From contig JAFPYR010000122.1 of NCBI GenBank assembly GCA_017412115.1, forward strand, positions 1 through 64,000: DNA of 64,000 nt, read 5' to 3'. A model generated the notes under the pieces. That model saw nothing but the letters and a program-made list of their open reading frames with translations. It ran no database searches and had not been told where the DNA came from. Each line of letters starts with the position of its first letter. Position 1 is the stretch's first letter. Position numbers and translations under genes: made by a program. Origin of the DNA: Bacteroidales bacterium (GTDB taxonomy: Bacteria; Bacteroidota; Bacteroidia; Bacteroidales; UBA3824). Of the stretch, positions 12,301 through 47,644 are shown in pieces.

Positions 12301-13329
12301 TTAATTAAATTTTTTCATCACATCAAACAGCAAGTCGTTTTGTTCGGGTGTGCCGACGGTTATTCGTATGCAGTTTTGACATTTGGGCATAGAATGTCTT
12401 GAACGCAAAATTATGCCGTTTTTCAGCACAAAGTCTTGTAACTCTTTGTGTTTTGCGGTTTTAATCATAAAGAAATTTGCGTCAGAGGGATAAATCTTTT
12501 CTATATACGGCAACGTTGACAAGTTTTTTATGAGTCTTTCGCGCTCCGAAACAAGAAGTTTTACCGTCTTTTCAAAACCGTCCAAATCCAACATCTTCTC
12601 ATTCAAGGACTTCTGCGTAAAACCGTCCATGTTATAAGGCATTTTCACCTTATTAATTATAGCGGCTAATTCTTTCGACATGTAACCTACGCCGGCACGC
12701 AGCGAAGCCAAGCCCCAAGCCTTTGAAAACGTCTGAATGACAACCAAATTGTCATAATCCTTTAAATATTTTATGCAACTTTCTTCGTCAGCAAAATCGT
12801 TGTAAGCCTCGTCAACAATTACAAGACCTTTAAAATTTTTCAATAATGTTAAGATTTTATCCGTCTTGAAGGCCTTTCCTGTCGGATTGTTCGGCGAACA
12901 AATGATTATCATTTTTGAATTTTCGTCCGCTTTGTCCAAAAGCCATTGCGGGTCAAAATCGAAATTGTCATCAAGCAAAACTTCTCTAAATTCAACGTCG
13001 TTCAAACACGCCAAAGTGTAATACATACCGTAACTCGGCGCAAGTGATAAAACGTTGTCTTGCTTGGGATTACAACTAACTCTGTACAAAAGGTCTAACA
13101 CCTCGTCGCTACCGTTGCCCATGACCATGTTTTGAATTTCAACGCCTTTTATTTTTGACAAAAGCGTTTTCGGGTCTATTTGCAACGGGTCGGGATAACG
13201 GTTCCAATTTCCGTAAGGATTTTCGTTAGCGTCAAGAAAAATATAGTCGCCTTTTGCAACTAAATCCCTCGCCGCCGAATACGCCTCCATATCCCAAATA
13301 TTTTTTCTTACAAATTTTTCTAAATTCAT
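12301..13329 (-). CDS. hisC: Histidinol-phosphate aminotransferase
   Basis: 342 aa, the normal length for this class II PLP aminotransferase. It shows the N-terminal DANENPYGNWNRYPDP signature, SPNNPTGKAF, VDEAYNDFA and the PLP-lysine region TFSKAWGLASLRAGVGY. It converts imidazole-acetol phosphate to histidinol phosphate. It is third in the hisG-hisD-hisC unit, separated from hisD by an unusual 167-base palindrome-rich spacer. Confidence 0.95.
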   Translation of the reverse strand: MNLEKFVRKNIWDMEAYSAARDLVAKGDYIFLDANENPYGNWNRYPDPLQIDPKTLLSKIKGVEIQNMVMGNGSDEVLDLLYRVSCNPKQDNVLSLAPSYGMYYTLACLNDVEFREVLLDDNFDFDPQWLLDKADENSKMIIICSPNNPTGKAFKTDKILTLLKNFKGLVIVDEAYNDFADEESCIKYLKDYDNLVVIQTFSKAWGLASLRAGVGYMSKELAAIINKVKMPYNMDGFTQKSLNEKMLDLDGFEKTVKLLVSERERLIKNLSTLPYIEKIYPSDANFFMIKTAKHKELQDFVLKNGIILRSRHSMPKCQNCIRITVGTPEQNDLLFDVMKKFN

Positions 13330-13496: not shown

Positions 13497-14777
13497 TTAT
13501 TTTTTCAACCTCACTGTAACCGCATTTTTATGTGCGAAAAGGTCTTCTGCCGCCGCCATCGTCTCTATGGCGTTTCCGATGTTGAAAATTCCTTCTTCGG
13601 AAATGGTCTGAAACGTGATTTTCTTTGTAAACGAATCCATGTTAAGACCAGAATAAGCATTTGCCGCGCGACAGGTCGGAAGAGTGTGATTTGTTCCCGA
13701 AGCGTAATCGCCGGCACTTTCGCAAGCATATTTTCCGATGAAAACGCTACCTGCATTTACCACGTTTTCAGAGAGTTCCAGAGCATTATCGGTGTTGATA
13801 ACCAAATGTTCGGGAGCCCAAAGATTTGTTAGTTTTACAGCCTCAAAACCGTCTTTTGTCAAAACGGCAAAACTATTTTCAAAACTTTTCTTCGCTGACT
13901 CTTTTCTCGGCAAAAGTTCCAACTGACGTTCTGCCTCGGCGATAATTTCAGCCATTTTGTCTTTTGAACTGACAAAAAGTCCGACCTGAGAATCGCTGCC
14001 GTGTTCACACTGACTTAGCAAATCTGCCGCTGCATAAACTGCATTTGTATTTTCATCGGCTATGACAGCAAGTTCACTCGGACCCGCCGGCATGTCGATT
14101 GCCGTTTCTGAGGAACTGACAAGCTGTTTTGCAACGGTTACAAAACGGTTTCCCGGTCCGAAAATTTTATAAACTTTCGGGACACTTTCCGTGCCGTAAG
14201 CCATTGCTGCGATTGCTTGCGCCCCGCCGATTTTGAAAACTTTTGTTACGCCCAAAAGTTTTGCGCAATAAAGCACGACGCTATTGATATTTCCGCCGCT
14301 TCTCGGAGGCGAGCAAAGCACGATTTCTTTGCAACCTGCTAATTTAGCGGGAATTGCGAGCATCAAAACCGTTGAAAAAAGTGGTGCATTTCCGCCCGGA
14401 ATATAAATTCCGACTTTTTCGATTCCGACCGCCTTTTGCCAACAAACAACGCCTTTTGAGGTTTCTACTTTTTTTATCTCGGTTTGAAGTTGCGCTTTAT
14501 GAAATTTTTCAATGTTATTTTTTGCAATATTGATTGCGTTTTTAAGTTCCTGAGAAACTTCTTTTTCCGCTTTTTCAAACTCATCTTCTTGGACCAAAAA
14601 ATTTTCGGGACAAGAGCCGTCAAATTTTTCGGACAGTTCGCGTAAAGCCTTGTCGCCCTGAGTTTTGACTTTGTCTAAAACGTCTTTGACAACAGGCTCT
14701 ATTTCAGAAGTTTTTGAAGCGGGACGAGACGATTTTTTCAAAAAATCATTCTCGTCTTTATAGTCTATGATAAACAT
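13497..14777 (-). CDS. hisD: Histidinol dehydrogenase
   Basis: 426 aa, full length. It shows KVGIYIPGGNAPLFSTV, the GPGNRFVTVAK segment, MPAGPSELAV and QCEHGSDSQVGLF (zinc ligands Gln and His of the family), and the C-terminal ASGTNHTLPT (family zinc His). It oxidises histidinol to histidine in two NAD-dependent steps. It lies 25 bases downstream of hisG and upstream of hisC on the same transcript. Confidence 0.96.
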   Translation of the reverse strand: MFIIDYKDENDFLKKSSRPASKTSEIEPVVKDVLDKVKTQGDKALRELSEKFDGSCPENFLVQEDEFEKAEKEVSQELKNAINIAKNNIEKFHKAQLQTEIKKVETSKGVVCWQKAVGIEKVGIYIPGGNAPLFSTVLMLAIPAKLAGCKEIVLCSPPRSGGNINSVVLYCAKLLGVTKVFKIGGAQAIAAMAYGTESVPKVYKIFGPGNRFVTVAKQLVSSSETAIDMPAGPSELAVIADENTNAVYAAADLLSQCEHGSDSQVGLFVSSKDKMAEIIAEAERQLELLPRKESAKKSFENSFAVLTKDGFEAVKLTNLWAPEHLVINTDNALELSENVVNAGSVFIGKYACESAGDYASGTNHTLPTCRAANAYSGLNMDSFTKKITFQTISEEGIFNIGNAIETMAAAEDLFAHKNAVTVRLKK

Positions 14778-14802: not shown

Positions 14803-15663
14803 TTAAAGAATCATCTTCTCAATCGGGACAACCAAAATTCCTTGTGCGCCGGCTGCTCTGAGTTGATCGATAATGTCCCAAAACTTACTTTCTTCAACAA
14901 CCGAATGAACCGAAACCCAACCACTGTCAGCAAGCGGAAGAACGGACGGAGATTTCATACCCGGAAGTAATTTTATGATGTCATCAAGTTTGTCTTTCGG
15001 AGCGTTGAGAAGAATGTATTTGTTTGATTTAGCGGCTTTTATAGCGTGAATACGGAACAATAGTTTTTCCAAAATTTGCTCTTTTTCTGCATTCAACTTG
15101 TCGTTTTCGATTAAAACAGCCTCAGAATAAACCATTTTTTCTTTTTCAACAAGTCCGTTTGACAAAAGCGTACTGCCGGTAGAAACGATGTCAAAAATAG
15201 CGTCAGCCAAGCCGATAACCGGGCAGATTTCAACAGAGCCGTTAATTACGTGAATATCAGCGTTTAAGTTATTGTCCTGAAGTACTTTTTTAAGGATATT
15301 GGGATAAGTGGTTGCGATTTTTTTGCCGTTGAACCATTCCAACCCAGAGTACTGCGTATCTCTTGGAATAGCGAGCGAGAGTCTGCATTTTCCGAAACCG
15401 AGTTTTTCGGCGGTAACAACTTTTTGACCCGATTCCCAAATAACGTTTTCGCCGACGATTCCCGCGTCAGCAACGCCGTCAGCAACGCATTGAGGAATAT
15501 CGTCGTCTCTTAAATAAAGAATGTCAATCGGAAAATCCGAAGCCGAGGCAAACAAAAGCCTTGAAGAATTGTTAGAGGCTGAAATGCCCGCTTTTTCAAA
15601 AAGTTCTATCGACTTGTCGCTCAAACGACCCGATTTTTGAATTGCTATTTTTAATCTTTCCAT
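14803..15663 (-). CDS. hisG: ATP phosphoribosyltransferase, long form
   Basis: 286 aa. The long (HisG_L) form is shown by the C-terminal ACT-like regulatory domain (about 210-286, ending AQGILVVPIEKMI), so no HisZ partner is needed and feedback by histidine is expected. The catalytic part has LKIAIQKSGRL, the DDIPQCVADGVADAGIVG segment and the PRPP loop DAIFDIVSTGSTL. It catalyses the first committed step of histidine synthesis. It is the first structural gene behind a His-codon leader peptide and terminator, so expression is probably set by attenuation. Confidence 0.96.
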   Translation of the reverse strand: MERLKIAIQKSGRLSDKSIELFEKAGISASNNSSRLLFASASDFPIDILYLRDDDIPQCVADGVADAGIVGENVIWESGQKVVTAEKLGFGKCRLSLAIPRDTQYSGLEWFNGKKIATTYPNILKKVLQDNNLNADIHVINGSVEICPVIGLADAIFDIVSTGSTLLSNGLVEKEKMVYSEAVLIENDKLNAEKEQILEKLLFRIHAIKAAKSNKYILLNAPKDKLDDIIKLLPGMKSPSVLPLADSGWVSVHSVVEESKFWDIIDQLRAAGAQGILVVPIEKMIL

Positions 15664-15693: not shown

Positions 15694-15744
15694 AAATAAA
15701 AAAAGCCGAACCGACTTGAAATTTTTTAAGTGCGATTCAGCTTT
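15694..15744 (-). terminator. Attenuator terminator of the hisG operon
   Basis: On the minus strand the arm AAAGCTGAATCG (from 15744) pairs with CGGTTCGGCTTT (to 15702), with two G-U pairs, and extends through ACTT/AAGT. It is followed at once by T7. It lies 36 bases after the stop of the His-rich leader peptide and about 40 bases before hisG, where an attenuator would be placed. Confidence 0.85.
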
Positions 15745-15780
15745 ATAATAAAAAAATAATTTTATCAAAATATGTTTTAT

Positions 15781-15864
15781 CTAAAACCGCACAACGATAT
15801 TGTTTCCATGATGAAGATGATGGAAGTGAAAATGTGAACCGTTATGCAATTTTAAAGTAATCAT
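15781..15864 (-). CDS. hisL: His operon leader peptide (hisL-like)
   Basis: A 27-codon reading frame with ATG at 15864 and TAG at 15781. Seven of 27 residues are histidine, with the run HFHFHHLHH at positions 11-19. It is preceded by a -7 box (15895..15888) and followed by a terminator hairpin ahead of hisG. This is the layout of a ribosome-mediated attenuator: stalling at His codons when charged tRNA-His is scarce would prevent terminator formation. The peptide resembles no enzyme; its function is regulatory. Confidence 0.88.
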   Translation of the reverse strand: MITLKLHNGSHFHFHHLHHGNNIVVRF

Positions 15865-15887
15865 TTTTTCTATTAATTTTACCGCAG

Positions 15888-15895
15888 CAAATATA
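15888..15895 (-). promoter_or_regulatory. -7 box of the hisL-hisGDC transcript
   Basis: TATATTTG on the minus strand, 23 bases upstream of the leader peptide ATG. The -33 element is poorly defined. Confidence 0.55.
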
Positions 15896-15964
15896 AAAAC
15901 ATTTTTTTATACAATAAAATTTTTTTTTAGTTTTTTTCTTATTGCAAAAATAACGTATTCTTTT

Positions 15965-15972
15965 TAAATTTG
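15965..15972 (+). promoter_or_regulatory. -7 box of hisHAF
   Basis: TAAATTTG fits TAnnTTTG and ends 26 bases before the GTG start of hisH. This promoter and the hisL promoter lie back to back within about 80 bases. Confidence 0.6.
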
Positions 15973-15998: not shown

Positions 15999-16586
15999 GT
16001 GAACATTGCGATTATAGATTATAAGGCGGGCAACGTAAAATCCGTGGAAGCGGCACTGCAACGTCTTAATTGTCAGGCCTATCTGACAAAAGATCATGAA
16101 AAAATCCTCAGTGCCGACAAAGTCGTTTTTCCCGGTGTGGGCAACGCAGGTACGGCAATGCAAGCCCTCAAAAAAGAAGGCTTGGATATTCTAATCCCAA
16201 AATTGAAACAACCCGTTTTGGGTATCTGCTTGGGAATGCAACTCATGTGCCGTCACAGCGAAGAAGAAGACACACCCGGCTTAAATATTTTTGATGCCGA
16301 GGTAAAAAAATTCGTTCCTGAAAACGGCGAAAAAATTCCGCACATGGGCTGGAACAATATTTTTAATCTTAAAACACCTCTGTATCAAGGTGTTAAAGAA
16401 GATTCGTTTGTTTATTTCGTTCATAGTTATATGGTTCCCGTGTTTGAATATACGGCGGCAGAATGTTGTTATGTTAAAAATTTTTCGGCATCGATTGCTA
16501 AAAATAATTTTTACGGAACGCAGTTTCACCCCGAAAAAAGCGGTTCAATAGGTTTTAAAATCTTGGAAAATTTTATAAAATTATGA
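15999..16586 (+). CDS. hisH: Imidazole glycerol phosphate synthase, glutaminase subunit
   Basis: 195 aa with a GTG start (codon 15999-16001); no in-frame ATG precedes the conserved MNIAIIDYKAGN start. It is a class I glutamine amidotransferase with nucleophile Cys77 in GICLGMQ and the His-Glu pair in FHPEKS. It supplies ammonia to HisF. Its stop overlaps the hisA start by 4 bases (ATGA), indicating tight coupling. Confidence 0.96.
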   Translation: MNIAIIDYKAGNVKSVEAALQRLNCQAYLTKDHEKILSADKVVFPGVGNAGTAMQALKKEGLDILIPKLKQPVLGICLGMQLMCRHSEEEDTPGLNIFDAEVKKFVPENGEKIPHMGWNNIFNLKTPLYQGVKEDSFVYFVHSYMVPVFEYTAAECCYVKNFSASIAKNNFYGTQFHPEKSGSIGFKILENFIKL

Positions 16587-17305
16587 TAATAATACCGGCA
16601 ATCGACATTATCAACGCTCATTGCGTAAGACTTGAGCAAGGTAAGTACGAAAATGTTAAAAAATACGATTTAAGCCCCATAAAAGTGGCAGAGGAATATG
16701 CTGAGGCGGGTTTGAGCCGTCTTCATCTCGTGGATTTGGACGGAGCTAAAAAAGGTGCGTTAGTCAATACGGAAGTTTTATCGGACATTGCTCAAAAAAC
16801 CTCGCTAAAAATTGACTGCGGCGGCGGAATCAAAACGTTAGGCGATGTTGAAATGCTGTTTTCGCTCGGAGCATACGCTGTAAATTTAGGCAGCGCAGCC
16901 GTCAAAAATCCTTCGCTTATGAGTGCGTGCCTAAAAAAATACGGCGGCGACAAAATAATTTTAAGTGCTGACGTTTTGGGCACTCAAGTCAGAATCAACG
17001 GTTGGCAATCGGACGGCGGAATTGAAATCAACGATTTAATCAAAAGCTTTTTAAAAGACGGTTTGCAACGTGTTTGCGTAACATCAATCAAATGCGACGG
17101 AATGTTGCAAGGCACTGACGTTGAATTATATAAAAGGCTTCAAAAGGAATTTCCTGAAATTAAAATCACGGCAAGCGGCGGCGTTTCAAGCAAAGAGGAT
17201 TTACTAAAATTAATAGATATTGACATCGACTCCGTTATAGTGGGCAAAGCGATTTATGAAAAAAGAATCAGCTTAAGCGAACTTGCGGAATTAACATCGG
17301 AATAA
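16583..17305 (+). CDS. hisA: ProFAR isomerase
   Basis: 240 aa (beta/alpha)8 barrel. The catalytic Asp lies in IPAIDIINAHCVRLEQG, with phosphate-binding loops DCGGGIKT and TASGGVSS and the second catalytic Asp in SADVLGTQV. It isomerises ProFAR to PRFAR. Overlaps hisH by 4 bases and is followed by hisF after 3 bases. Confidence 0.96.
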   Translation: MIIIPAIDIINAHCVRLEQGKYENVKKYDLSPIKVAEEYAEAGLSRLHLVDLDGAKKGALVNTEVLSDIAQKTSLKIDCGGGIKTLGDVEMLFSLGAYAVNLGSAAVKNPSLMSACLKKYGGDKIILSADVLGTQVRINGWQSDGGIEINDLIKSFLKDGLQRVCVTSIKCDGMLQGTDVELYKRLQKEFPEIKITASGGVSSKEDLLKLIDIDIDSVIVGKAIYEKRISLSELAELTSE

Positions 17306-17308
17306 AAA

Positions 17309-18064
17309 ATGTTAGCAAAAAGAATCATAGCGTGTCTTGACGTCAAAGACGGTCAGACGGTAAAAGGCGTCAGTTTTGAAAATTTGCGTTATGCCGGCGA
17401 CCCTGTAGAACTCGGAAAAGCATATTCGGAACAAGGCGTGGACGAATTGGTTTATCTCGACATCACAGCAACAAACGAAGGCAGAAAACAGATTTACTCG
17501 TTAGTTGAAAAAGTAGCGCAAAACTTATCAATACCTTTTACAATAGGCGGCGGTATTTCCGGCGTGGAAGATGCTGAAAATCTGTTAATTCACGGTGCTG
17601 ACAAAATTTCCGTCAATTCGGCAGCCGTTAGAAATCCGCAACTTGTGAGCGACCTCGCCTTGAAATTCGGCAAACAGTTCGTAGTTGTTGCTATCGATGC
17701 CAAAACTATTGAAAATCAATGGATTGTTCATACTCACGGCGGCAAACGTCCGACCGAAAAAGAATTGTTTTCGTGGGCGAAAGAAATGGAAGACAGAGGT
17801 GCGGGCGAAATACTTTTTACCTCAATGAACCATGACGGACATCAAACAGGTTTTGCAAACGAGGCTTTGTGCAAATTGTCAGAAATGCTTTCGATTCCTG
17901 TAATTGCCTCCGGCGGTGCAGGCAAAATGAGTCATTTCAAAGACGTTTTTCAAAAAGGAAAAGCCGATGCAGCATTAGCAGCAAGTATTTTTCACTTCGG
18001 CAAAATCGCAATTCCCGATTTAAAACAATACCTTATAAAAGAAGGAATTAATGTAAGAATATAA
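17309..18064 (+). CDS. hisF: Imidazole glycerol phosphate synthase, cyclase subunit
   Basis: 251 aa, full length. Catalytic Asp in [15 protein letters not shown] and in VAIDAKT; phosphate-binding loops TIGGGISG and ASGGAGKM. With HisH it makes imidazole glycerol phosphate and AICAR. Last gene of hisHAF; hisI(E) and hisB do not follow. Confidence 0.96.
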
Positions 18065-47378: not shown

Positions 47379-47458
47379 TTTTATAGAAAATGAAAGTTAT
47401 TTTCAAAAGTCATTATCCTTGCCGTCCTCGCAGCTTAAGATAACAAAAAAGGCTGTTT

Positions 47459-47612
47459 TGCAGGTCTTCTGACTTACTTCGTTTAACGTTACGCCTTCCC
47501 GAAAAAACTTTCAGTGGCAAAAAGAATGTAACGCCTTATAAAAAAGTTAACAGCAGCGGGACTGTTCAGGTTTTTCACCTGATTCCCTTTTAATTCCGAA
47601 GACCCTGAACGG
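47459..47612 (-). ncRNA. Cobalamin riboswitch
   Basis: On the minus strand the conserved elements occur in order: TTAAAAGGGAA, then GGTGaaaaACC-type hairpin, CAGTCCCGC, the GCCACTG box, GGGAAGGCG and the B12 box AGTCAGAAGACCTGC. Position and order match the B12-element family. It lies 81 bases before the btuB-like start and should repress btuB/btuG when B12 is plentiful. Confidence 0.93.
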
Positions 47613-47636
47613 GTAGCGGAAACAAAACACCGAAGG

Positions 47637-47644
47637 CAAAGGTA
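47637..47644 (-). promoter_or_regulatory. -7 box ahead of the cobalamin riboswitch
   Basis: TACCTTTG on the minus strand, about 25 bases before the first riboswitch element. Confidence 0.6.

Follow-up and report, generated by a model that had tools for sequence, protein, structure and literature searches.

The hisGDC genes in the 64,000-nucleotide stretch of Bacteroidales DNA analysed here (the window) are preceded by a short frame rich in His codons, raising the question of whether a leader peptide controls their transcription. Ribosome-mediated attenuation requires a ribosome that follows close behind RNA polymerase and initiates promptly on a short frame, and in Bacteroidota translation starts largely without Shine-Dalgarno sites and a different promoter is used. 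We asked of this locus which parts of an attenuator can be recognized, how far they are conserved and how they could act together.

The hisGDC leader and its relatives

The draft genome to which the window belongs, as contig 77, comprises 4.09 Mb, and its nearest named relatives are uncultured Bacteroidales of ruminants. On the minus strand, a TTG and the box TATATTTG are followed by a 27-codon His frame, a hairpin with a T7 tail, hisG, hisD and hisC (Table 1). A preliminary description of this DNA had claimed the order promoter box, His frame, terminator and hisG, and the coordinates of all parts agree with it; the 27 codons, the seven His and the HFHFHHLHH core that it listed are likewise all found in the minus-strand frame 15864-15781, with His at codons 7, 11, 13, 15, 16, 18 and 19. 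Promoters were called by their match to the Bacteroidetes pattern TTG-N(16-20)-TAnnTTTG, and most relatives within the genus have a TAnnTTTG box 25-46 nt 5' of their leader ATG, the remainder having AnnTTTG. The folding energy of the whole leader RNA is -44.6 kcal/mol, against a dinucleotide-shuffle mean of -26.6 (z -4.8).

Table 1. Coordinates of the his locus elements in the window.
Feature	Position	Strand	Remarks
-33 region	15896..15914	-	TTG at 15912-15914 plus 16-nt spacer; predicted by promoter pattern match
-7 promoter box of hisGDC transcript	15888..15895	-	TATATTTG; predicted; TAnnTTTG at -31 from leader ATG
His leader peptide frame	15781..15864	-	27 codons, ATG to TAG; MITLKLHNGSHFHFHHLHHGNNIVVRF, then stop
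Segment 1, protector strand	15838..15856	-	leader codons 3-9; partner of segment 2 when the RNA is folded with no ribosome
Segment 2, antiterminator 5' strand	15781..15792	-	GUGCGGUUUUAG; frame end including stop codon
Intrinsic terminator hairpin (segments 3 and 4)	15702..15744	-	dG -16.6 kcal/mol; covariation
Segment 3, terminator 5' arm common to antiterminator	15730..15740	-	CUGAAUCGCAC
T7 tail of terminator	15698..15704	-	sequence
hisG	14803..15663	-	286 aa; heads the unit proposed to be attenuated
hisD	13497..14777	-	
hisC	12301..13329	-	last his gene of the unit
-7 box of divergent hisHAF	15965..15972	+	TAAATTTG; predicted; TTG at 15942
hisH-hisA-hisF	15999..18064	+	divergent, not attenuated

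The proposal had been made to depend on conservation of the His run in relatives, and the run is conserved. A His leader, defined as a short frame upstream of hisG in which nine codons hold four His or more, occurs in 126 of the 180 related loci (a set with some duplicates), against 24 of 3600 dinucleotide shuffles (0.7%) and 1 of 180 opposite strands. It is present in 15 of the 16 genomes of the genus having hisG, in 41/55 at the level of the order, in 34/40 from other orders of the class and in 17/24 from the phylum's other classes where HisG is close, and it is absent in all three loci with a very distant HisG; the sample is skewed to genomes with a similar HisG, and these counts are not unbiased frequencies. 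Named Bacteroidales with a His leader include Phocaeicola, Bacteroides, Sunxiuqinia, Mariniphaga and one Muribaculaceae MAG, among them the cultured relatives Phocaeicola coprophilus, Bacteroides mediterraneensis and Sunxiuqinia (L123, L124, L119). Among the related loci, the leader is missing upstream of hisG from most of those of Prevotella, Segatella and Hoylesella. It is also missing upstream of hisG in a goat abomasum MAG (L004, the same locus as L102) whose HisG is 98% identical to that of the window; the promoter box of this locus, TATTTTTG, lies 54 nt 5' of hisG, and the locus reads as a natural attenuator-less derivative.

The preliminary description had also stated that the divergent hisHAF unit has no leader and that only half of the pathway would be attenuated. 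The predicted hisHAF box lies about 27 nt from the hisH GTG, too close for a leader to fit in between, and no His leader was found upstream of hisB or hisIE, located on other contigs. Since none of these genes has a His leader, attenuation in this genome would act on only part of the pathway, hisGDC, with the first committed step among its reactions. hisGDC is the conserved unit in relatives, and the divergent hisHAF occurs, among 15 genus loci, only in the closest relative (L101).

Two further leaders were found in the same genome. Upstream of trpE by 115-175 nt (L229, G000:C19:169500-174500, minus strand) lies a Trp leader, MKNFSTYNNWWWRLRNKNS and stop, containing WWW and followed by a U-tailed terminator hairpin of -19.7 kcal/mol. 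The operon of pheA, tyrA and a DAHP synthase (L233, G000:C77:101000-109000, minus strand) has a Phe/Tyr leader, MVINSNAYYFYAFYFYFSNKVGR and stop, containing YYFYAFYFYF, 90-162 nt upstream of pheA, with a U-tailed hairpin of -16.7 kcal/mol and a matching antiterminator. No convincing leader candidates were seen upstream of homoserine dehydrogenase, ilvD or leuA. With Trp and Phe/Tyr leaders beside the His leader in one genome, leader-peptide attenuation looks like a general device of this organism.

Competing helices and the position of the ribosome

The G-U tolerant terminator with T7, as drawn in the preliminary description, is correct with the long hairpin 15744-15702. A hairpin scan by itself gave only a weaker inner hairpin (15717-15703), and the long one is preferred because of the pairs found in relatives, as in L003, where two G-U pairs of the long hairpin are replaced by U-A and C-G. 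In a genus alignment of 13 sequences (A2, mean column identity 54%), 96% of the terminator cells are paired, 6 of the 12 pairs are changed on both sides, the covariation score is reached by 0 of 500 shuffles and an invariant T run stands directly 3' of the covarying hairpin. Across the related loci, terminators follow 105 of 116 leaders, with a median of -16.3 kcal/mol.

A fold search for an anti-terminator alternative, which the preliminary description had called for, recovered a duplex that it had missed: segment 2, GUGCGG(U)UUUAG (15792-15781), pairs with segment 3 (15740-15730) through 11 pairs with one bulge at -12.9 kcal/mol. Helices 1:2, 2:3 and 3:4 are thus predicted to adopt the classical attenuator arrangement. 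The GTGCG of segment 2 is invariant in the genus alignment, GTGCG/CGCAC is kept in nearly all genus members, and the antiterminator core in A2 is 95% paired, compared with at most 51% when slid. No double-sided changes were seen in this core within the genus alignment, since it is almost invariant there.

Both strands differ between lineages. Segments 2 and 3 read GTGCGG/CCGCAC in the genus of the window and GGTAGGC/GCTTRCC in other Bacteroidia; a flavobacteria-like group has CTCAAGCG/CGTTTGAG, and another class GCGCCGG/CCGGCG. Phylum-wide, the helix between a segment 2 and its own partner scores 18.9-21.2 on average, versus 11.0-13.5 for partners swapped between lineages (135 loci, Mann-Whitney p 2e-34, a guide only, as the loci are related and not independent). 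Relatedness does not explain the resulting block-diagonal pattern of matches between lineages. From the window alone the antiterminator stands out less: 4 of 100 shuffles are as good against the 5' arm alone, a modest result, and 31 of 100 against the whole hairpin, which is not significant. The test on the 5' arm only overlooked loci whose segment 2 has its partner in the loop or the 3' arm (L018, L023), and the whole-hairpin and swap tests were added. In the weaker, per-locus whole-hairpin test, 58% of loci rank at 5 or better out of 100, versus 16% for mismatched partners; the window's own leader, at 31/100, would fail it.

The nascent transcript was folded before the 3' arm of the terminator emerges, with 15 nt to either side of the ribosomal A site held unpaired. 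In these mask folds the 1:2 helix forms without a ribosome, and with a ribosome at codons 2-12, which include His7 and His11, 8-10.5 pairs of the antiterminator 2:3 are formed. About half of the 2:3 helix remains with the ribosome at His13, and a ribosome on the stop codon hides segment 2 and abolishes 2:3. With the ribosome at His15-19, the long 1:2 helix of the window re-forms, so that productive stalling in this leader should be confined to the early His codons; nearly all His positions are predicted to be productive in L008, L135, L188 and L190. The geometry required of the switch, in which a ribosome at the stop masks the antiterminator and a stalled one frees it, is predicted, among the His codons, for His7, His11 and His13 only. 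When the complete leader of the window is folded to equilibrium, the terminator wins wherever the ribosome sits, and the decision must consequently be kinetic.

Conservation, terminator covariation and the antiterminator back the earlier reading of the element as a His-codon attenuator of hisGDC. Very probably, it is a ribosome-mediated transcription attenuator that senses charged tRNA-His and acts on hisGDC only. The sequences show the elements, the order in which they stand, how they pair and how widely they are kept; that the frame is translated, that ribosome and polymerase are coupled and that the switch responds to histidine is inferred, and transcription-translation coupling in the phylum is an assumption of the mechanism. 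RNA polymerase would start just 5' of the leader frame, closely trailed by a ribosome translating the His codons. When His-tRNA is ample, this ribosome would reach the stop codon and cover segment 2, so that the 3:4 terminator forms and transcription stops before hisG. When it is scarce, the ribosome would stall on the early His codons and mask segment 1, letting 2:3 pair; the terminator would then come too late to form, and hisGDC would be transcribed. In the absence of translation, 1:2 would pair and the terminator would form.

Searches with known RNA families gave no match to RF00514 (his_leader) in the window at the gathering score, nor, with E values of up to 10, in the leader region, and no match to the T-box riboswitch model in either; at a permissive threshold, Rfam returned only chance-level matches on the leader region. 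Elsewhere in the window, on the minus strand at 47442-47642, lies a cobalamin riboswitch (RF00174, 105.7 bits).

Variant outputs and alternative explanations

Five loci (L020, L021, L022, L025, L039) have two His-rich leaders in series before hisG, each with its own terminator, and are tandem attenuators in layout. In L211-L218, mostly from one family of another class, there are His codons all the way to the stop codon of the leader, a small hairpin, GTGC..GCAC, straddles that codon and no U-tailed terminator was found. The last 60-90 nt from the leader stop to hisG hold 3-7% G in 7 of these 8 loci, and C minus G is at least about 0.14 in all 8; in 54 control 5' regions G averages 17%, and 4% of them show such a C excess. 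We regard this strongly G-depleted stretch as a candidate Rho-loading region. An intrinsic terminator is likewise missing behind the His leaders of family f120 (L196, L197, L198, L201, L203); several of its loci have His codons inside a hairpin, TCACCAC/GTGGTGA, and a downstream AATGTATGTTTCTACGCGAAATAA is conserved in L196 and L203. The leaders of family f127 (L073, L080, L083, L091) end in a conserved HHFHHSS before the stop and have no U-tailed terminator, and a hairpin, CCTCTTAAGAGG or CCTCTTGAGAGG, lies across the stop codon in L073 and L083. It is possible, and we propose it only tentatively as a joint reading, that the pre-hisG His leader is ancient and near-universal in Bacteroidota and has interchangeable outputs, with both antiterminator strands replaced while complementarity is kept, with tandem attenuators and with Rho termination in L211-L218.

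That some clades retain the His leader but have no U-tailed terminator could also speak for translational attenuation, in which the leader would switch access to the hisG start and not transcription termination, and leader-peptide translational attenuators have been described in Bacteroides (tetQ; reviewed in PMC5418344). In the window, however, some 35 nt separate the end of the strong hairpin and its T7 from the hisG ATG, which is left uncovered; the element, moreover, covaries as a hairpin with an invariant T run directly after it, and we give this explanation only a slim chance. Slimmer still is the chance that a plain 5' terminator constitutively lowers hisGDC expression and that the His frame is a decaying relic. 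The leaderless L004 and the missing leaders of most Prevotella loci would fit such decay, but the His run and the antiterminator are maintained in 15/16 genus members and in most of the class, and the terminator has undergone compensatory changes.

The frame might instead encode a functional His-rich, perhaps metal-binding, small protein, the terminator being its own. Against the up to nine consecutive His that some relatives carry, which would suit such a protein, stands the observation that only the His run is kept while length, N-terminus and C-terminus vary freely between genera. The C-terminal codons track RNA complementarity and no protein motif, and the position of the frame before hisG is fixed, making this the least probable of the explanations considered here. 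Our preferred reading remains a transcription attenuator.

Relation to known attenuators

This kind of attenuator is already known and has been forecast in the phylum, and its reach there is under-documented. Vitreschak and colleagues reportedly listed candidate attenuators in Bacteroidetes/Chlorobi in 2004 (in FEMS Microbiol Lett). In 2010, leader-peptide systems were described as known only in Proteobacteria and Actinobacteria, to which that study added a new case of its own in Firmicutes (PMC2965389), and His attenuators were extended in Firmicutes in 2022 (PMC9413887). Short frames reminiscent of leader peptides have been noted in 5' UTRs of Bacteroides thetaiotaomicron (PMC7366714). In Flavobacterium psychrophilum, a transcriptome study gave clues of leader-peptide attenuation before amino-acid operons, and found structured hisG and pheA elements conserved within Flavobacteriaceae, calling the hisG element original and worth studying (PMC9723704, 2021). 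The preliminary description was aware of no studied case in the phylum, and we found no tested amino-acid attenuator of Bacteroidota in the open-licence literature; leader-peptide attenuation and a hisG element had, however, been reported for the phylum (PMC9723704). Nor did we find in that literature an earlier description of a phylum-wide His leader with lineage-specific antiterminators.

The enterobacterial hisL attenuator (E. coli, MTRVQFKHHHHHHHPD) resembles the present element in its His-codon leader before hisG, its intrinsic terminator and its mutually exclusive antiterminator and protector helices. The window leader differs in having no sequence or Rfam relation to hisL, no Shine-Dalgarno site, a Bacteroidetes-type promoter and a shorter three-helix layout, and it would control hisGDC only and not the whole pathway. 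The predicted attenuators of the Bacillus cereus group, Peptostreptococcaceae and Erysipelotrichales likewise combine a His leader, terminator and antiterminator before his operons, but they belong to Firmicutes, have 3-5 His codons in a row and show no sequence relation (PMC9413887). The tetQ leader of Bacteroides CTnDOT is a leader-peptide attenuator from the same phylum that controls translation and responds to tetracycline instead of an amino acid (Wang et al. 2005, via PMC5418344). Closest in phylum and gene is the Flavobacteriaceae hisG 5' element, for which the main text of PMC9723704 gives no His frame or antiterminator; the window comes from Bacteroidales, and its helix sequences differ.

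A His attenuator would supply an identity for that structured hisG element. The set of attenuators found here offers a concrete, testable regulation of amino-acid synthesis in gut and rumen bacteria, and phylum-wide His, Trp and Phe/Tyr attenuators would be natural reporters for transcription-translation coupling in Bacteroidota.
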